From the NCBI RefSeq assembly GCF_000827555.1, contig NZ_CDOI01000173.1, positions 1-63,670 on the forward strand: a stretch of DNA of 63,670 nucleotides. The letters run 5' to 3'. Both the position numbers and the translations under genes were made by a program. This document shows positions 1-14,229 of this stretch, piece by piece (within the stretch, counting starts at the first letter, position 1; each line of letters opens with the position of its first letter). The DNA is from Capnocytophaga canis (lineage in GTDB: Bacteria; Bacteroidota; Bacteroidia; Flavobacteriales; Flavobacteriaceae). The notes below the pieces were generated by a model that worked only from the letters and a program-made list of their open reading frames with translations, made no database searches and had not been told where the DNA came from.

Positions 1-1106
1 ACCCCCGATTTTACCATCGCTACCAATAATGTTCCGTAGTCAAAATAGGTTTGCTCTTCAATAGCTTCGGTAGTGGTAGGAGTTTTCTCAAAATCGGTTT
101 CAGCCGTAGCGGAACGCCACGTAAGCAGGTTTTTGTCGTTGTTTGCCCAATCTTCCATCATCGTTTTTGAAAAATGTCCGCTTAAAATATCGTCCATATG
201 CTTTTCAAAGAGCGGACGCATCATCTTTTTCAAATCTTCGGAAATGGCAAATGCTCTTACTTTGGCAGGATTCGATAGACGATTCATCATATTGGTAATT
301 CCGCCGTGTTTTAAGGCTTCGGTAATGGATTCCCAACCGTATTGAATGAGTTTGGCAGCGTGTTCAGGGGCAACTCCTTCGCGTTTCATCTTATTGAAAG
401 CCAATATCGAACCTGTTTGTAAAAGTCCGCACAGAATGGTTTGTTCGCCCATCAAATCCGATTTTACTTCCGCCACAAACGATGAACGTAGCACTCCGGC
501 AGTGTCACTTCCCAAAGCTGTAGCATAGGCTTTTGCCCACTCAAAACCTTTGTTCTCAGGGTCGTTTTTGGGGTGAACGGCAATCAAAGTTGGTACACCA
601 AATCCACGTTTGTATTCCTCACGCACTTCCGAACCCGGCGATTTTGGAGCTACCATAATCACGGTAATATCTTTGCGGATTTCAATGCCTTCTTCCACAA
701 TGTTAAATCCGTGTGAGTAAGATAAAGTCGCCCCTTGCTTCATCAAAGGCATAATCTTGTTAATCACCGAAGTATGTTGCTTGTCGGGGGCTAAATTACA
801 CACCAAATCTGCCGTAGGAATAAGCTCTTCAAAAGTACCTACTTGAAAGCCGTTGGCGATGGTATTGGTGTACGAGGGGCGTTTTTCAGCGATGGCACAT
901 TCACGCAAAGCGTAGGAAACATTCAAACCCGAATCACGCATATTCAACCCTTGATTAAGCCCTTGGGCTCCTGCTCCCACGATAACAATTTTTTTTCCTT
1001 TTAAGGCTTCAACTCCTTGACTGAAATCGCTTTTCTGTAATAATTCGCAAACGCCTAATTGTGCTAATTTTTCTCTGAAATTTAGGGTATTAAAATAATT
1101 TTTCAT
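1..1106 (-). CDS. ilvC: ketol-acid reductoisomerase, class II (partial, C-terminus beyond window)
   Basis: Reduces and isomerises acetolactate/acetohydroxybutyrate with NADPH, the second step of valine and isoleucine synthesis. The minus strand reads from an ATG at 1106 to the window edge without a stop (about 368 codons). It starts [10 protein letters not shown] and has the Rossmann motif GAGAQG near residue 45, followed by QGLNMRDSG and SYALREC, which are hallmarks of the long, E. coli-type class II enzyme of about 490 residues; the last quarter is therefore missing. It is the last visible gene of ilvD-ilvB-ilvN-ilvC. The 154-base gap to ilvN is AT-rich and shows no promoter. Identity is secure; only the C-terminus is unseen. 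Confidence 0.96.
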
Positions 1107-1260
1107 TGTTCTTCCGATTTAATTTAAAGATTTATATGGATTGTGTTCTTAAAAATATGATGATAACTTTTGGTGTCAAACCGAATAAAATCAAAGTTCT
1201 TGGAATTAAAGATTTGATTTTACTCAACTTGAAAAAACTGTTTTCTTACATCATACTCTA

Positions 1261-1800
1261 CTATTTTTGGTTATCTACCTCATATTTGTTGAGCAAGGGA
1301 GATACTTTCATTTCCGATTTTGAAATAGCAATTCGTGCCGAGCCCGAAAATTGCATAATTCCGTAAGGTTTCAGCTCCTGATAAAGTGCTGCGATGGACT
1401 CTCGTGAGCCTGTTTTTGAAATTACATAAAAATGTTTATAAACAGCAACAATATTAGCATTATATCGCTGAATTATAGCTTGAATGGGAGTTTCTTCATC
1501 AAAAAGGGAAGCCGTAGGCATTTTGAAAAGTGAATTTTCAAGGGAAATGATTTCTTCATCGGTATGATAAAATACTTTGATGATTTCTATCTGTTTTTCA
1601 ATCTGTTGAACCAAATGTTCTACCCATTTTTGAGTGGTATGAGTCACAATAATCATCCGAAATACATTGTCAATTTCCGATGCCGACACATTGATGCTTT
1701 CCATATCAATATGTCTTCTGAGGAAAATCCCCGTCACTCTGTTGAGTAGCCCAAGCTGATTTTCCGAATATATGGTGATGGTGTATGTTTTTTGTTCCAT
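1261..1800 (-). CDS. ilvN: acetolactate synthase small (regulatory) subunit
   Basis: Regulatory subunit of acetohydroxyacid synthase; in this family it binds the feedback inhibitor (usually valine) and activates the catalytic subunit. The 179-residue protein has an N-terminal ACT domain at about residues 5-77 (YTITIYSENQLGLLNRVTGIF and the following IDMESINVS) and a C-terminal ALS_ss_C-type half (about 90-165). The length is typical of long bacterial IlvN/IlvH. It lies 78 bases downstream of ilvB on the same strand, so co-transcription is likely. Whether valine, isoleucine or both inhibit cannot be read from the sequence. Confidence 0.95.
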   Translation of the reverse strand: MEQKTYTITIYSENQLGLLNRVTGIFLRRHIDMESINVSASEIDNVFRMIIVTHTTQKWVEHLVQQIEKQIEIIKVFYHTDEEIISLENSLFKMPTASLFDEETPIQAIIQRYNANIVAVYKHFYVISKTGSRESIAALYQELKPYGIMQFSGSARIAISKSEMKVSPLLNKYEVDNQK

Positions 1801-1878
1801 ATTTACAATTTTACGTTTTAGGTTTTAAAGTTTTAGGCTCAAGGTTTTATTATTTATTGAACTTCTTTTATTGCTTTT

Positions 1879-3561
1879 TTATTTCAGTCTCACTTCCGAA
1901 ACTGAAGCTCCTGTGGGTACCATCGGGAAAACGTTGTTTTCTTTCTCAACACGAACTTCCAAGAAATAAGCCTTGTCGGAATTGAGCATTTCTTTAACAG
2001 CTTCTTCCAAATCGCTGCGTTTGGTAACCAATCGCGATTGAATGTGATACCCTTCTGCAATTTTAATAAAATCAGGATTTATCATTTCGGTGGAAGCATA
2101 TCGGCGGTCAAAAAATAGTTCTTGCCACTGACGAACCATTCCTAAAAATTCGTTGTTTAAAACTACAATTTTCACAGGAATTTGCGACTGAAAAATTGTT
2201 CCTAACTCTTGAATGGTCATTTGAAAACCACCATCACCAATTACCGCAACCACTTGTTTTTCAGGGACTCCTATTTTTGCCCCTATGGCTGCCGGTAGGG
2301 CAAATCCCATTGTGCCTAATCCTCCTGAAGTGATTTTACTGCGTGAATTTTTAAATTTTGCATAACGACAAGCCATCATCTGATGTTGCCCCACATCGGA
2401 AACAATAACCGCTTCGTGATTAGAACATTTATTTATCAATTCTAGAACTTCTCCCATTGTAAGCCCTTCTTTTTCAGGATATAATTCGTTTTTAATGACG
2501 GAATCATATTCTTCTTTGTCGTATTTTTTGAATTCTTCTCGCCACGTTGTATGTTTTTTCTGTTCTACTAACGGAAGTATTTTCTGTAAAGCCTCTTTTA
2601 CATTGCCCAATATGGCGACATCAGCCTTTACGTTTTTGTTGATTTCCGCAGGGTCAATATCAAAATGCAATACCTTTGCTTGTTTGGCGTATCTACTTAA
2701 ATCGCCCGTTACACGGTCATCAAAACGCATTCCCAAAGCGATGAGTACGTCACACGTATTGGTCATTACATTAGGAGCATAGTTGCCGTGCATACCTACC
2801 ATTCCCACATAATTGGGGTGTTCGGTGGGCAATGCCGAAAGTCCTAAAATGGTCGCTGCTGCGGGTATATCGGTCTTTTCTAAAAAGGATTTTAGCTCGT
2901 TTTCAGCTTGACCTAAAATGATTCCTTGTCCGAAAACAACATAGGGTCTTTGTGCTTGATTGATGATTTGTGCGGCTTCAGCCAATTTTGAATCATCTAT
3001 TTCAGGTACAGGATTATAGCTTCGCATTCGAGTACATTTCTTATAGTCGAACTGAGCAACTTGGTCGAACTGAGCACTTTTTACGATGTCGATAAGTACA
3101 GGTCCGGGTCTTCCCGAACGGGCAATGTAAAAGGCTTTGGCGATTGCTTCGGGTATTTCTTCTACTTCCGTGATTTGGAAATTCCATTTGGTTACGGGGG
3201 TAGAAATTCCGATGATGTCTGTTTCCTGAAAGGCATCTGTTCCTAAGAGATGCTTTGCTACCTGACCTGTGATGCACACCAGCGGCGTGGAATCGATTTG
3301 GGCATCGGCAATTCCTGTGATGATGTTGGTTGCTCCGGGTCCTGATGTGGCAAAAACTACACCTACTTTTCCGGTAGCTCTTGCGTAGCCTTGTGCAGCG
3401 TGAATAGCTCCTTGCTCGTGGCGAGTGAGGATGTGTTTCAACTGATTTTGGTATTTGTAAAGTTCGTCGTAAACAGGCATTATCGCCCCGCCGGGGTAAC
3501 CGAAAGCTAAATCGATCCCTTCAGCTAACAAACATTTGATTAAAACTTCTGCTCCTGTCAT
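1879..3561 (-). CDS. ilvB: acetolactate synthase large (catalytic) subunit
   Basis: TPP-dependent enzyme that joins two pyruvates, or pyruvate and 2-oxobutyrate, to start branched-chain amino acid synthesis. The 560-residue protein has the PYR-domain catalytic glutamate in RHEQGAIHAAQGYA (E49), a central FAD-type domain, and the TPP-binding motif GDGGFQM starting near residue 442 followed by NNEF about 27 residues later. The length and three-domain order are normal. It starts with ATG at 3561, 178 bases after ilvD; that gap holds an 11-bp inverted repeat (see separate entry). The regulatory subunit gene follows. Confidence 0.97.
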   Translation of the reverse strand: MTGAEVLIKCLLAEGIDLAFGYPGGAIMPVYDELYKYQNQLKHILTRHEQGAIHAAQGYARATGKVGVVFATSGPGATNIITGIADAQIDSTPLVCITGQVAKHLLGTDAFQETDIIGISTPVTKWNFQITEVEEIPEAIAKAFYIARSGRPGPVLIDIVKSAQFDQVAQFDYKKCTRMRSYNPVPEIDDSKLAEAAQIINQAQRPYVVFGQGIILGQAENELKSFLEKTDIPAAATILGLSALPTEHPNYVGMVGMHGNYAPNVMTNTCDVLIALGMRFDDRVTGDLSRYAKQAKVLHFDIDPAEINKNVKADVAILGNVKEALQKILPLVEQKKHTTWREEFKKYDKEEYDSVIKNELYPEKEGLTMGEVLELINKCSNHEAVIVSDVGQHQMMACRYAKFKNSRSKITSGGLGTMGFALPAAIGAKIGVPEKQVVAVIGDGGFQMTIQELGTIFQSQIPVKIVVLNNEFLGMVRQWQELFFDRRYASTEMINPDFIKIAEGYHIQSRLVTKRSDLEEAVKEMLNSDKAYFLEVRVEKENNVFPMVPTGASVSEVRLK

Positions 3562-3606
3562 ATTTATTTAAAGATTTGATATTTAATGAATTATTTAAAA
3601 ATTTAG

Positions 3607-3673
3607 AAAAGTATGATACATAAGAATAAACGATTTCGATCAGCCTGATATTAAAAATTATCATCATACTTTT
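3607..3673. repeat. 11-bp inverted repeat between ilvD and ilvB
   Basis: The arms AAAAGTATGAT (3607-3617) and ATCATACTTTT (3663-3673) are perfect complements separated by 45 bases, inside the 178-base ilvD-ilvB gap. In the ilv mRNA this could fold into a long-loop hairpin. No run of T follows immediately on the minus strand, so it is not a textbook terminator. A role in mRNA processing or differential stability of the ilvD and ilvBNC parts is possible but only inferred. Confidence 0.5.
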
Positions 3674-3739
3674 TATAACATAGCGAAAAAATTTTGTTGA
3701 TTAATTTGCATCTGATTAATTATGAGTTGAGGCTCTCGA

Positions 3740-5422
3740 CTAAAATTCATCGGTAACACAACCTTGCGAGGCGGAACTTACCGTACGAGCGTATTTGTAA
3801 AGCACCCCTCGTTTGGCAGTATCTTTTAATGGTTTGAGGCTGAAATTGGCTCGTCTTTGAGCTAATTCTTCTTCGGTGAGATGTACATCAATAGTGTTTT
3901 TTACAGCATCAATGGTAATCAAATCACCATCTTGTACCAATGCAATGTTACCACCATTTTGTGCTTCGGGCGAAATGTGTCCAACCACAAATCCGTGTGA
4001 GCCTCCCGAAAATCGTCCATCGGTGATGAGTGCTACTTTTTTGCCCAAACCTGCCCCCATAATGGCAGAAGTCGGTTTTAACATTTCAGGCATTCCCGGA
4101 CCTCCTTTCGGACCTTCATAGCGAATGACCACAACTGTTCCTTCGGTGACTTCGCCTTTGGCAATTCCTTCATTGGCAAGAAATTCACCTTCATAAACTT
4201 TAGCTTTTCCGGTAAACGAAAGTCCTTCTTTACCCGTAATTTTTGCTACAGCTCCTTCGGTGGCTAAATTTCCATAGAGAATACGAATATGTCCCGTTTC
4301 TTTAATTGGTTTTTCTAAGGGATATATAATATTTTGGTTTTCAGAAAGTGATGGTACATCTGCAAGATTTTCAGCTATTGTTTTACCTGTAACTGTAAGG
4401 CAATCACCGTGAAGTAATCCTTTTTCGAGTAAATATTTCATCACAGCAGGGATTCCGCCAATGTGGTGTAAATCTTCCATAACGTACTTTCCGCTTGGTT
4501 TGAGGTCTGCGATAAAAGGTGTGGAATCGCTCAGCTTGGCAAAATCATCAATAGTCATCGGGATTTGAGCTGCTTTTGCAATGGCTAAAAAGTGCAATAC
4601 GGCATTGGTAGAGCCCCCCAAGGCAACCACCAATCGGAAAGCATTTTCGATGGATTTTCGCGTGACGATATCGCGAGGTTTGATGTCGTTTTCTTGCAGA
4701 TAACGCAACGCTTTACCTACTTTGAGGCATTCTTGTCTTTTGGCATCACCTGAGGCAGGAGTTGAAGAGTTGTAAGGCAAACTCATTCCCAATGCTTCAA
4801 TGGCCGAAGCCATTGTGTTGGCAGTGTACATTCCGCCACAAGCTCCTTCGCCCGGACAGGCTTTGTGTATTACTTCCTTATATTCTTTTTCATCAATAAT
4901 TCCTGCTACTTTTTGTCCCCACGCCTCGAAAGCGGAAACTACATCGAGTTTTTTTCCGTTATGGCAACTTGCGGCAATTGTTCCGCCATACACCAAAATT
5001 GAAGGTCGATTCAGTCTGAGCATTGCCATTAAAGCTCCCGGCATATTTTTGTCGCACCCTACCACTGTAACGAGTGCATCGTAACACATTGCTTGAATTA
5101 CCGTTTCGATAGAATCAGCGATAATATCTCTCGAAACCAAAGAGTAACGCATTCCGTAAGTACCCATTGAGATTCCGTCTGAAACACCTATGGTGTTGAA
5201 AATCAACCCAACAGAACCCGATTGCTGTACGCCCTCTTTAATTTTCAAAGCTAAATCATTTAGATGCATATTACAAGGATTTCCCTCGTAACCCGTACTT
5301 GCGATGCCTACTAAAGGTTTTTTTAGGTCGTCATCGGTCAGCCCCAAAGCGTGTAGCATTGCTTGTGCTGCGGGTTGCGTATCGTCTTGTGTAACTTGTT
5401 TGCTGTATTTATTTAATTCCAT
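3740..5422 (-). CDS. ilvD: dihydroxy-acid dehydratase
   Basis: Iron-sulfur enzyme that dehydrates 2,3-dihydroxy acids to the 2-oxo acid precursors of valine and isoleucine. The 560-residue protein carries the three conserved cluster cysteines C50 (EGNPCNMH), C123 (VGCDKNMPG) and C195 ([14 protein letters not shown]). K125 matches the lysine that is carbamylated for Mg binding in known enzymes. The start ATG at 5422 lies about 40 bases beyond the attenuator terminator, so this is the first structural gene controlled by the leader. The order ilvD-B-N-C matches the pathway set. Nothing appears truncated. Confidence 0.97.
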
Positions 5423-5452
5423 ATTTTGATGATGATTTCTGAATCAAATTTT

Positions 5453-5493
5453 AAAAATAAAAAAACCTGCATCTAATTTCTGATGCAGGTTTT
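5453..5493 (-). terminator. attenuator (Rho-independent) terminator ahead of ilvD
   Basis: On the minus strand a perfect 12-bp stem is formed by 5482-5493 and 5462-5473 with an 8-base loop (5474-5481), followed by a T-rich tract that continues to about 5453. It sits between the leader peptide stop (5522) and ilvD (5422), the position of an attenuator rather than an end-of-operon terminator. The upstream arm (CCTGCATC in mRNA sense) can alternatively pair with the bases just after the leader stop. Confidence 0.93.
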
Positions 5494-5554
5494 GTGTGTT
5501 TTACATATACGAAGCCTCGCATCAATAGGTGTTATTGATGATAATAATAAGGCT
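5462..5554 (-). promoter_or_regulatory. ilv transcription attenuator: competing RNA hairpins
   Basis: Three mutually exclusive pairings are visible on the minus strand. (1:2) The Ile-codon part of the leader pairs with the bases around its stop: CATCAATA (5540-5533) with TATTGATG (5527-5520), extended by AGCCT (5554-5550) with AGGCT (5517-5513). (2:3) The segment GATGCgAGG around and after the leader stop pairs with CCTGCATC of the terminator with one bulged base, acting as antiterminator. (3:4) The terminator itself. A ribosome stalled at Ile codons would block 1:2, allow 2:3 and let transcription continue; a ribosome at the stop would mask segment 2 and give termination. This is classic attenuation logic read directly from base pairing; function is inferred. 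Confidence 0.88.
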
Positions 5555-5578
5555 AATAATTATACTGTTATGATACAT
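5522..5578 (-). CDS. ilv operon leader peptide (18 aa, Ile-rich)
   Basis: A short frame from ATG at 5578 to TGA at 5522 encodes MYHNSIIISLIIIINNTY. Seven of 18 codons are Ile (ATA, ATT x4, ATC x2) with one Leu (CTT) and no Val. It starts about 15 bases after the predicted transcription start of a two-box Bacteroidota promoter and ends inside the antiterminator segment, as expected of an attenuation leader. The codon bias implies the operon senses charged tRNA-Ile rather than Leu or Val. It is equivalent in role, though not in sequence, to the enteric ilv leader. Confidence 0.88.
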   Translation of the reverse strand: MYHNSIIISLIIIINNTY

Positions 5579-5597
5579 TTATTAATTAATTCGGTTG

Positions 5598-5629
5598 CAA
5601 ACGTAATACTTTCTGCAAAAAAAAACAAA
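5598..5629 (-). promoter_or_regulatory. Bacteroidota-type promoter of the ilv operon
   Basis: On the minus strand TTTG (5629-5626) is followed after exactly 20 bases by TACGTTTG (5605-5598), matching the TTTG-N19/20-TAnnTTTG consensus of the Bacteroidota primary sigma factor. The start of transcription would lie near 5594, giving a leader mRNA of about 170 bases before ilvD. Confidence 0.8.
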
Positions 5630-5791
5630 TTTTTTATGTTTTTTCTTGTTTAAAAATTGGATTCCTACTCTAATTTCATTTTTAGAATTTTCATTTAGCT
5701 TCTATGATATAGTCCATTAAAAAGTTTTTCCGTTCCTACTGTTTACTTTTTTAAATATTTACGTACCTTTGTAGGCTAATTGTTTAAACAA

Positions 5792-6727
5792 ATGCGAAGA
5801 ACTTTTTTAGATTATATGCTAATTTCCCTAAAAGGAATGGCTATGGGAGCTGCGGATGTAGTTCCTGGTGTTTCAGGTGGAACAATCGCTTTTATATCAG
5901 GTATTTACGAAGAGCTGATTAGTTCTATCAACAATATAAATTTAGGAGCTTTCAAAGTATTGAAAAACCATGGGATTGTCAATTTTTGGAAACATATCAA
6001 CGGTAATTTTTTCTTTTCACTACTTGTGGGGATAGGTATAAGTATTTTATCCTTAGCAAAAGGCGTAAAATGGTTATTGGAAAATCAACCGATTGCTGTA
6101 TGGTCATTTTTCTTCGGATTGATGTTGGCAAGTATACTATTTTTGGCAAAGGACATTAAAAAATGGAATCTTGGAACGGTTTTATCAATGCTCTTTTTCG
6201 GAATTTTGGCTTATTTAATTACCATTGTTCCACCTTTAGGAAGCAACGATGGACTGATTTACGTATTTTTTTCAGGAGCATTGGCAATCTGTGCGATGAT
6301 TTTACCAGGTATTTCGGGAGCATTTATTTTAGTACTTTTAGGGTCGTATCATATCGTTTTGGGAGCCTTAAATGACTGGAATTTTAAAATTATAGGGGTT
6401 TTTGGAATAGGAGCAATCATTGGAATACTGAGTTTTTCAAAAGTATTGAAATGGCTTTTTGCGAATTACCGAAATACCACAATTGCGGGGCTCACAGGGG
6501 TTATCATTGGCTCACTGAATAAAATTTGGCCTTGGAAGGAGATTCTTCAAACTCGCATTGATTCGCATGGCAACGAAGTGCCTGTATGGGAAAAGAGTAT
6601 TTTGCCTTCCACTTATGAAAGTATTTCAGGTGATTCACAATTTCTAACAGCTGTTGTATTGGCGTTGGCAGGATTTTTTATACTCTACGGACTTGAAAGG
6701 TGGGCGGTAAATTTGAAAAAGTCGTAA
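5792..6727 (+). CDS. DUF368 membrane protein (candidate polyprenyl-phosphate translocase)
   Basis: Polytopic inner-membrane protein of the DUF368 family. Members of this family have been linked to recycling of undecaprenyl phosphate across the membrane; the role here is by family only. About 311 residues with some eight hydrophobic segments and two copies of a PGxSG motif: VPGVSGGTIAF near the N-terminus and LPGISGAFIL in the middle, indicating an internal repeat. A promoter box TACCTTTG (5764-5771) places transcription start near 5775, so I prefer ATG 5792 over the in-frame TTG at 5780. It stands alone between the ilv leader and the MMPL gene. Confidence 0.85.
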   Translation: MRRTFLDYMLISLKGMAMGAADVVPGVSGGTIAFISGIYEELISSINNINLGAFKVLKNHGIVNFWKHINGNFFFSLLVGIGISILSLAKGVKWLLENQPIAVWSFFFGLMLASILFLAKDIKKWNLGTVLSMLFFGILAYLITIVPPLGSNDGLIYVFFSGALAICAMILPGISGAFILVLLGSYHIVLGALNDWNFKIIGVFGIGAIIGILSFSKVLKWLFANYRNTTIAGLTGVIIGSLNKIWPWKEILQTRIDSHGNEVPVWEKSILPSTYESISGDSQFLTAVVLALAGFFILYGLERWAVNLKKS

Positions 6728-6900
6728 TTAATAAGAAACTTCATCATATTACGTATTTACGAGACTCAAAAAACAAACATCATGAGCTCAATTGTAGAAT
6801 AAAAACGCATCAAAACAATAAAATTGGAAAAAAATCATTTACCAAATAGACATTAATGATGCAATTAAGTTAAAGATAAACGAAATTAATAAAATAGAAC

Positions 6901-9294
6901 ATGATAAAATGGTTTAAAGCTGAATTTTGGACTACTGTTGCACGTCTGATTCTGAGAAATCGGATTGCGATACTCGTTGCTATTGCACTAATAACCCTTT
7001 TTTTAGCCTTGCAATGGAAAAACATTCGCTTTACATTTACGGAAGCGAATATGCTTCCTGACGGACATCCGATTAACCTAGAATATCATGAATTTCTATC
7101 AAAATTTGGTGAAGAAGGAAATCTTATTCTATTAGCTATTGAAAATAAAAATAGTTACACTCCCGAAATATTAAATCAATGGAAAGGTTTAGCCAATGAA
7201 TTTAAACAATTTAAGGAAGTTGAAGCTGTGCTTTCCATAGGGAATTTACCAGTTTTAACAAAAGACGTAGCTACCGAAAGTTTTACTACGAAACCACTTA
7301 TAGACGGCATAATAACCTCTCAAAATCAAGTAGATAGCATCAAACAATTACTTTCCGAAAAACTGCCTTTCTATAAAGGAATCGTCTACAATCCAGAAAC
7401 AGAAACTTTACAAACGGCGTTGTATATGAACAAAAAGATCATAAACACGAAAGAACGTAAAGACTTCATTATAAACACCTTAATCTCTATTATAGAAAAA
7501 TTTGAACAGCAAACGCAAATCAAAGTACGTACTTCAGGTATGCCCTACATACGAACACTTAGTGCTCAAAACATTATCGATGAAATTGGGTTATTTATCG
7601 GAATGGCGTTGCTTATTACATCATTTATTTTATTCCTTTTTTTCCGCTCTTATCGTGCTATGTTTATTTCGATGAGTGTAGTTTCTATTGGGGTTATGTG
7701 GTCATTCGGGTTGCTTGGTTTATTCAATTATGAAATTACGATTTTGACTGGACTTATTCCTCCTTTGGTAATCGTTATTGGAATTCCAAACTGTATATTC
7801 TTGATTAACAAATATCAACAGGAATTTAACAAACATGGAAACCAAGCCAAATCTCTCCAACGTGTCATCAGAAATGTAGGAAATGCGACCTTGCTTACTA
7901 ACCTAACAACTTCCATCGGTTTTGCTACTTTTATTTTTACGGAAAGTAGTCTTTTACAGGAGTTCGGAACCATTGCTGCCATCAGCATCATGTCTATCTT
8001 TTTCATTTCGTTGTGCATTATACCTATCATATACAGCTTTATGAAAATTCCAAAAGAAAAACATTTGAAACACTTGCACCGCACTTGGATTCAGAAGCTT
8101 ATACAACTGTTGGAACGAACCGTTAAGCACCACCGAATTGCAGTATTCTCTATTGCTGTAATGCTGCTAACACTAAGTATTATAGGGATTAATCAAATGA
8201 AAATATCAGGAAGTTTGATTGAAGATATGCCAAAATCAGCTCCTTTTTTCGATGATATTTTGTTTTTTGAAAAAGAATTTGGAGGCATCATGCCTTTGGA
8301 AATTACGGTAGATACCAAACAGAAAAATGGAGTAATGCGATTGCCTAACTTAAAAAAAATTGACGAGTTATGTAAATATATTGAGGATATTCCAGAAATT
8401 TCTAAACCTATTTCAATAGTTGATTTAGTGAAATATGCTAAACAAACCTACTACAACGGAAATCCAGAGTACTACGATTTACCAACCTCTCAGGAACAAA
8501 ATTTCATAATGTCCTACGTCAGAAATTCAAAAGGTAACGGACAAATGCTAAGTTCCTATGTTGATTCCTTGGGGCAAACGGCTCGAATCACAACCTTCAT
8601 GAAAGATATTGGTACGGACAAAATGCAACAAATAGAAGAAAATATCTACGCAAAAGCAAAAAAATTATTTCCAGAAGAAAAATATGAAGTGAAAGTCACT
8701 GGAAAAGCTTTTCTGTTTACTAAAGGAACTACCTATTTGGCAAAAAATCTTATTTATTCGTTAGGATTAGCAATTTTACTTATTGCACTGATCATGTCCT
8801 ACATGTTCCGTTCATTTAAAATGATACTCACTTCATTGGTTCCTAACCTATTACCACTATTGGTTACAGCAGGAATGATGGGTTATTTTGGCATACCTCT
8901 AAAACCCTCGACCATATTGGTTTTTAGTATTGTTTTCGGTATTTCAGTTGATGACACCATTCATTTTTTGGCAAAATATCGTCAGGAATTGGTTGCAAGA
9001 AACTGGAAAATCAGCAAATCCGTTTATGCGACTTTACGAGAAACAGGAGTAAGTATGTTCTACACCTCAGTGGTATTGTTTTTCGGGTTTTCGGTGTTTA
9101 TGCTATCAAGTTTTGGCGGAACAAAAGCTCTCGGTGGATTGATTTCACTAACTCTTTTATTCGCCATGCTAACCAATTTGTTATTACTACCGAGTTTATT
9201 GCTTTCGTTAGAAAGAACCATCGCAAATAAAGAAACTCTTATAGAGCCAAAAATTGATATTTTACCAGAAGAGGAGGAAGAAAATAAGGCATAA
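6901..9294 (+). CDS. MMPL/RND-superfamily exporter
   Basis: A 797-residue inner-membrane protein with the duplicated RND layout: one N-terminal membrane segment (about residues 17-38), a long extracytoplasmic loop, a block of membrane segments (about 217-395), a second single segment (about 412-432), a second loop and a final membrane block (about 620-770). The second block contains VFGISVDDTIHFLAKYRQE, the acidic pair typical of MMPL/SSD-type permeases. Substrates in this family are mostly lipids or hydrophobic compounds; the substrate here is unknown. murB follows after 11 bases, so the two are likely co-transcribed. There is a 173-base gap upstream without a clear promoter. Confidence 0.85.
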   Translation: MIKWFKAEFWTTVARLILRNRIAILVAIALITLFLALQWKNIRFTFTEANMLPDGHPINLEYHEFLSKFGEEGNLILLAIENKNSYTPEILNQWKGLANEFKQFKEVEAVLSIGNLPVLTKDVATESFTTKPLIDGIITSQNQVDSIKQLLSEKLPFYKGIVYNPETETLQTALYMNKKIINTKERKDFIINTLISIIEKFEQQTQIKVRTSGMPYIRTLSAQNIIDEIGLFIGMALLITSFILFLFFRSYRAMFISMSVVSIGVMWSFGLLGLFNYEITILTGLIPPLVIVIGIPNCIFLINKYQQEFNKHGNQAKSLQRVIRNVGNATLLTNLTTSIGFATFIFTESSLLQEFGTIAAISIMSIFFISLCIIPIIYSFMKIPKEKHLKHLHRTWIQKLIQLLERTVKHHRIAVFSIAVMLLTLSIIGINQMKISGSLIEDMPKSAPFFDDILFFEKEFGGIMPLEITVDTKQKNGVMRLPNLKKIDELCKYIEDIPEISKPISIVDLVKYAKQTYYNGNPEYYDLPTSQEQNFIMSYVRNSKGNGQMLSSYVDSLGQTARITTFMKDIGTDKMQQIEENIYAKAKKLFPEEKYEVKVTGKAFLFTKGTTYLAKNLIYSLGLAILLIALIMSYMFRSFKMILTSLVPNLLPLLVTAGMMGYFGIPLKPSTILVFSIVFGISVDDTIHFLAKYRQELVARNWKISKSVYATLRETGVSMFYTSVVLFFGFSVFMLSSFGGTKALGGLISLTLLFAMLTNLLLLPSLLLSLERTIANKETLIEPKIDILPEEEEENKA

Positions 9295-14156: not shown

Positions 14157-14229
14157 CGGGGTGTGGCGCAGTTGGTAGCGTACACGTATGGGGTGCGTGT
14201 GGTCGCTGGTTCGAGTCCAGTCACCCCGA
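14157..14229 (+). tRNA. tRNA-Pro (anticodon GGG)
   Basis: A 73-base cloverleaf: acceptor stem CGGGGTG (14157-14163) with CACCCCG (14222-14228), discriminator A at 14229, D-stem GCGC/GCGT, anticodon stem CACGT/GCGTG enclosing the loop ATGGGGT with anticodon GGG, and a T-arm with TTCGAGT loop. The CCA end is not encoded. A TATATTTG promoter box at 14137-14144 sits about 13 bases upstream, so it has its own promoter although it follows the rel gene by only 49 bases. Confidence 0.96.

Follow-up and report, generated by a model that had tools for sequence, protein, structure and literature searches.

The minus strand of a 63,670-nucleotide stretch of Capnocytophaga canis DNA, hereafter the window, carries upstream of ilvD a short leader that is predicted, with a probability of about 0.93, to act on the ilvD-ilvB-ilvN-ilvC(-ilvA) operon as a ribosome-mediated transcription attenuator. 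This classical reading, proposed in an initial annotation made from the sequence alone, is strongly supported by the covariation of hairpins 1:2 and 3:4, by the position of the element before ilvD and by the matches of an independent covariance model (R1). Comparison of many genomes, in which compensatory changes are seen, speaks for classic leader-peptide attenuation of branched-chain operons in Flavobacteriales, a bacterial group in which few such switches have been described.

Architecture of the leader and its operon

All parts of the leader are read on the minus strand. The putative promoter comprises a -33 box, TTTG (5626..5629), which the genus sequences, compared by eye, repeat exactly or nearly so at the corresponding alignment position, and, after a spacer of 20 nt, a -7 box, TACGTTTG (5598..5605), which conforms to TAnnTTTG in 7/7 genus sequences; the same -7 consensus is described for Flavobacterium psychrophilum in passages of PMC9723704. 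The leader ORF, MYHNSIIISLIIIINNTY (5522..5578), consists of 18 codons and TGA, starts with ATG and contains seven Ile codons, one Leu codon and no Val codon, with no Shine-Dalgarno-like sequence seen by eye before the ATG. Leaders of the genus have 18-20 codons in 7/7 sequences, that of L112 starting with GTG. The putative main sensing run, ATT ATT ATC ATC, occupies codons 11-14 (5537..5548).

Segment 1 (CATCAATA, 5533..5540) and the segment 2 arm (TATTGATG, 5520..5527), which has the stop codon inside, form hairpin 1:2, whose 8 pairs involve codons 13-14, the last for Ile, together with the stop codon. In the antiterminator 2:3, GATGCgAGG of segment 2 (5515..5523) faces CCTGCATC (5489-5482) in 8 pairs with one bulge. 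Segment 3 (5482..5493) is both the antiterminator partner and the 5′ arm of the terminator, the 3′ arm of which is segment 4 (5462..5473). As predicted from sequence, terminator 3:4 spans 5493-5462 with 12 bp and a loop of 8, and a T-tract (5453..5465), overlapping the stem end, gives it the form of an intrinsic terminator. The end of the T-tract is 30 nt from the ilvD ATG (5422), and the leader stop lies approximately 100 nt upstream of ilvD with the terminator-like stem in between. The two-box promoter, the 18-codon ORF with its seven Ile codons, single Leu and lack of Val, the antiterminator pairing and the 12-bp terminator with T-tract had all been claimed in the initial annotation and were found as described; the pre-terminator hairpin was also found, but it uses codons 13-14 and the stop codon and not all seven Ile codons.

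The genes behind the leader, also on the minus strand, are producers of the amino acid that would be sensed. The first, ilvD (dihydroxy-acid dehydratase, 3740..5422), scores 745.5 bits against NCBIfam TIGR00110 (cut-off 618.15) and is followed by ilvB (acetolactate synthase large subunit, 1879..3561; TIGR00118, 718.6 bits, cut-off 538.35), by ilvN (the small subunit, 1261..1800; TIGR00119, 95.7 bits, cut-off 56.9, and NF008864, 104.7 bits, under its cut-off of 119) and by the part of ilvC (ketol-acid reductoisomerase, 1..1106) that precedes the contig end, identified by reading the sequence. A complete ilvC copy in L118 passes TIGR00465 and NF003557 and has ilvA next to it; in genome G150, the ilvD of which is near-identical to that of the window, ilvA lies 3′ of ilvC. 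On the other side of the leader a divergent gene (5780-6727, plus strand) matches PF04018. Neither leuA nor hisG has a match at E 0.001 in the window's genome, which thus offers no leu or his leader for comparison, and inspection by eye of the region upstream of its aspartokinase-homoserine dehydrogenase gene (L199) revealed no thr leader.

Within the window the leader stands out by its fold and by its coding content. The 144-nt leader folds at -32 kcal/mol versus -17.1 (sd 3.0) for shuffles (z -5.0), with 0/200 shuffles equalling it, and among 585 ATG-started ORFs of 12-30 codons on both strands of the window the leader ORF is the only one that packs 6 or more Ile into 10 codons. The terminator by itself is unremarkable and would prove little: a scan of positions 1-8000 found 4 terminator-like sites versus 7.7 expected from shuffles, 3:4 being the sole one on the minus strand.

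Leaders before ilvD in relatives

Among 149 genomes of the family, 110 carry ilvD, and upstream DNA of 106 was used, G008, G057, G062 and G065 being left out; further ilvD loci were drawn from genus genomes and from named contigs (the best 80 of a longer list), and removal of 7 of the 197 regions as duplicates (same last 209 nt) left 190. A leader was counted when an ORF of 10-40 codons, 5 or more of any 10 being Ile or Val, was accompanied by a terminator within 60 nt. Such an Ile/Val-rich leader with a terminator occurs in 86/190 non-identical ilvD upstream regions, versus 0/570 shuffles and 2/190 reverse complements; a laxer Ile+Val threshold gives 87 regions (9 reverse complements) and a stricter one 76 (0). 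The other 104 lack such a leader by this definition, some of them having, by eye, another gene directly 5′ of ilvD, and the count of 86 misses elements that are visible by eye in L006, L015 and L017. Ile codons, whose conservation in relatives the initial annotation had suggested as a check, occur in 86/86 leaders of this set, itself chosen for Ile+Val.

According to their terminator arms, the 86 leaders fall into a CCTGYATC-like type (28, the genus included), a CCTTCC-like type (46) and others (12). Going by record labels among the best 80 contigs, leaders are also found in Saprospiraceae, Segetibacter, Elizabethkingia and one Ignavibacteriae record.

Conservation of the alternative pairings

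The 28 loci of the first type were divided into the 7 of the genus (alignment A3) and 21 others, of which 17 entered alignments A1 and A2; the remaining four (L018, L157, L159 and L170) lack TGAT at the leader stop and were excluded after the fold and segment results had been seen, and in 0/4 of them does hairpin 1:2 fold more stably than 95% of shuffles.

Hairpins 1:2 and 3:4 are conserved by compensatory change. Taken together in the 17 non-genus sequences, 97.7% of their cells are paired, falling to at most 45.4% when the arms are slid, and 27 cells are double-changed; 0/500 shuffles equal the real alignment in paired percentage, in double-changed cells or in covariation score, while 3/500 reach the number of double-changed pairs and 343/500 the number of pair types. 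Across the 7 genus sequences all 139/139 cells of 20 pairs are paired and 3 pairs are double-changed (0/500 shuffles). The pairing of 1:2 also appears when arms are exchanged among the 24 loci with TGAT at the leader stop: own arms give -7.70 versus -4.58 kcal/mol for swapped arms, and 0/2000 permutations reach the observed total. Judged alone, 1:2 is better than 95% of shuffles in 45/86 loci (19/28, 21/46 and 5/12 for the three terminator-arm types).

Antiterminator 2:3 is conserved as well, with little variation and weaker statistical support than 1:2 and 3:4. Outside the genus it is 97.5% paired (at most 47.9% when slid), with no double change and an uninformative shuffle control (500/500); within the genus it is 100% paired, with one double change and a weak shuffle control (145/500); and in a duplex test it exceeds 95% of shuffled regions in only 28/86 loci (11/28, 13/46 and 4/12). 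The compensatory changes sought by the initial annotation in all three hairpins are thus present in 1:2 and 3:4, whereas 2:3 is kept and hardly varies. Across the first type, segments 2/3/4 read GATAC/GTATC/GATAC in 7 loci, GATGC/GCATC/GATGC in 5 and GATGT/ACATC/GATGT in 1, so that in these 13/28 loci the change is matched in all three. The other 15/28 show different combinations, with a mispair in 2:3 for one of them (GATAA) and reliance on G-U pairs for all others. The register of 1:2 in the genus is one codon off from that of the other loci.

Search with an independent covariance model

Model R1 was built from the 17 non-genus sequences and represents one sequence type only, the CCTTCC-like terminator type (46/86 loci) being outside its coverage. 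Its best match in the window's genome is the leader itself (5544-5457, E 4.6e-5). In 7/7 ilvD-bearing genus genomes the best match lies immediately 5′ of ilvD (E 8.1e-6 to 1.2e-4), and the 13 genus genomes without ilvD gave nothing better than E 0.0047.

Beyond the genus, in other genomes of the order, 32 places in 23 of 395 genomes were listed, 14 of which were examined: 4 precede ilvD, 3 precede ilvE-ilvD, 1 precedes an ilvN-like gene with ilvA, and 6 have no branched-chain gene downstream within the fetched stretch. Leaders at the places before ilvE-ilvD or the ilvN-like gene and ilvA are, for example, MNILVNIIISVVIISSSPS and MKTNMNIIIISIIIRSFE. The ilvE genes of L239 and L242 pass NCBIfam, and that of L240 is named by its likeness to L239. 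At L243 (G537:C10:330700-333100) an Ile-rich leader and a terminator are followed by an unusual 146-aa protein resembling the acetolactate synthase small subunit, which scores under the curated cut-offs, and by ilvA, ilvB and ilvD being absent from the fetched stretch. No such arrangement of leader and gene was seen at four further places outside this list, L237, L238, L253 and L254 (E 3.4e-4 to 0.0098). Among these, L237 (G166:C1:1128002-1128086; E 3.4e-4) has a strong terminator, no leader ORF was found there, and it is probably a plain terminator. R1 matches plain terminators as well, and it matches the opposite strand of its own sites because the terminator is palindromic.

Proposed mechanism

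RNA polymerase would start near 5590, as judged from the promoter boxes, and a ribosome would load on the leader ORF. When Ile-tRNA is ample, the ribosome would proceed to the TGA within segment 2 and keep this segment covered, 3:4 would form and transcription would stop about 30 nt short of ilvD. When Ile-tRNA is scarce, the ribosome would stall at codons 11-14, covering segment 1 and leaving segment 2 free to pair with segment 3 while segment 4 has yet to be synthesised; the terminator would then fail to form and the operon would be transcribed. If the leader is untranslated, 1:2 would form and lead to termination. Promoter use, termination, stalling, ribosome-polymerase coupling and the Ile response are what we infer from the arrangement of these elements.

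The geometry of the leader is compatible with this sequence of events. On the assumption that the ribosome covers 11 nt beyond its A-site codon, and considering geometry only, 8/8 pairs of 2:3 are possible with the ribosome at codons 11-14, and 0 pairs of 2:3 with the ribosome at the stop codon, where 3:4 remains; a stall at codon 6 or 8 likewise allows 2:3. Equilibrium folding favours 3:4 over 2:3 at every ribosome position tested, and antitermination must therefore be kinetic. Known attenuators are kinetic switches too.

Which amino acid would be sensed

Ile is accepted as the main signal to which the window's leader would respond, and sensing of Ile alone by this leader is plausible. The initial annotation had proposed that the operon reads the charging of tRNA-Ile only in this lineage, which fits the window's leader but fails as a lineage rule: Val codons are absent in 5/7 genus leaders versus 1/79 non-genus leaders, and are present once in L113, three times in L117 and in 78/79 leaders outside the genus. 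Reading of Ile alone would thus be a narrowing in part of the genus. The 79 non-genus leaders hold on average 5.5 Ile, 3.0 Val and 1.2 Leu codons, counts that are not independent, the leaders being related by descent.

A scenario that may be entertained tentatively, at somewhat worse than even odds, starts from a Flavobacteriales attenuator sensing Ile and Val, found before ilvD, ilvE-ilvD or an ilvN-like gene with ilvA. Some members of the genus would have shed every Val codon from it and so narrowed it to Ile sensing only; no leuA could be detected in the organism, and the genus as a whole has its 1:2 register one codon from that of its relatives. If true, the amino-acid specificity of an attenuator would be an evolvable trait, traceable codon by codon.

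The competing reading, held to be rather unlikely, is that the attenuator responds to a broader set of branched-chain amino acids, antitermination being triggered also by the Leu at codon 10 in the window and by the Val codons in relatives. The single Leu codon is part of the stretch that would do the sensing, so that Leu limitation may elicit some response, and Leu is kept at this place in 5/7 genus leaders; Val is frequent outside the genus, as given above; and every sense codon tried as a stall site (6, 8 and 11-14) leaves 2:3 possible. However, the window's leader has no Val, the Leu is replaced in 2/7 genus leaders (by Gln in L116 and by Val in L117), and Leu is probably no product of the window's genome, in which leuA is unmatched at E 0.001.

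Alternative explanations of the element

Outside attenuation itself, the leader or its translation might act on the translation of ilvD, by reinitiation or coupling, and not on transcription. Leader genes near structural genes have been proposed to boost translation by reinitiation, with spacings that in Bacteroidetes peak at 11-14 bp according to passages of PMC4833913. The leader stop of the window is far from such a spacing, at about 100 nt before ilvD and with a terminator-like stem between, and this explanation is considered very improbable.

Still less credence is given to the view that the stem-loop is a mere terminator, perhaps bidirectional, and the Ile-rich ORF an accident of AT-rich DNA. 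The window is indeed AT-rich (G+C 0.348), terminator-like sites are no rarer in its shuffles and the stem scores on the plus strand too; yet the neighbouring gene beyond the leader is divergently oriented, so that no minus-strand transcript arriving from there needs an end, and conservation extends to the Ile/Val leader, to its reading frame and to pairing 1:2. An accident of composition was rejected on the counts of 86/190 regions versus 0/570 shuffles and 1/585 window ORFs, and a stray terminator on the conserved leader and hairpin 1:2. Equally poor are the prospects of a metabolite riboswitch or T-box with an incidental ORF: ilv operons of other phyla are regulated by such elements as well, but Rfam 15 at gathering score reports nothing over the window except a tRNA at 14157, on which ground this candidate was discarded for the leader, the best sub-threshold match, Thr_leader, is itself a leader-peptide family, and the genus alignment, inspected by eye, shows no further conserved block.

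Relation to known attenuators

Enterobacterial leader attenuators share a fixed order of parts, alternative pairings, a terminator with a U-tract and codons for the product of the operon, and the leader attenuator favoured here resembles those of the ilv (ilvGMEDA, ilvBN), leu, thr and his operons in all of these. The ilvGMEDA leader contains a mixture of Ile, Val and Leu codons. The window's leader differs from the enterobacterial ones in having Ile plus one Leu, a Bacteroidota promoter and no Shine-Dalgarno-like sequence in view. Its nearest Rfam match is Thr_leader (RF00506; 5571-5456, 35.9 bits, under the gathering score of 55), from which it is distinguished by the operon behind it, ilv and not thr. 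A survey of 2010 by Lopatovskaya and others may, reportedly, already list such leaders.

No ilv leader of Bacteroidota was encountered in a literature search conducted mostly at the level of titles, with selected passages. A close precedent is a 2021 study of F. psychrophilum, likewise of the Flavobacteriaceae, selected passages of which see 'strong clues' that amino-acid operons are preceded by leader peptide attenuators, report some structured 5′ elements without Rfam matches and name pheA and hisG among the conserved elements, the term 'ilv' not occurring in its main text (PMC9723704). For another member of the phylum, Bacteroides thetaiotaomicron, the corresponding parts of PMC7366714 mention long 5′ UTRs that contain leader-like sORFs, the example being the hypothetical gene BT_4401 and 'ilv' being absent from the main text. 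The Corynebacterium ilvBNC attenuator (ilvB-II motif), as presented in passages of PMC10272879 and PMC11857589, is alike in combining a leader ORF, rich in branched-chain codons there, with a terminator and an antiterminator, and belongs to another phylum and to an operon with another first gene. As far as these sources go, the element is a well-supported new ilv case of a mode of control, leader-peptide attenuation, already suggested for F. psychrophilum (PMC9723704).

A conserved element that reaches no Rfam cut-off is thereby described, together with a natural series of leaders differing in the amino acids they would sense; for specialists it will be a useful annotation more than a surprise.

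Distribution and possible mosaic structure within the genus

The occurrence of ilvD is patchy in the genus (7/20 genomes, that of the window included), and the leader element accompanies it across the genus genomes. The window and G150 (leader L112) are almost identical in ilvD and in the 3′ halves of their leaders, and differ in the promoter and in the first leader codons, a pattern (window 5578-5555 and upstream) that points to recombination, the joint of which would fall within the leader ORF. The leader of the window starts with MYHNS, as does L117, and that of G150 with MTKIYFYS, as does L115. At a greater distance, L059 (JABFGH010000007.1, labelled Ignavibacteriae) has a terminator and an Ile/Val leader ahead of ilvD and, still further upstream, another small ORF that is rich in Ile.
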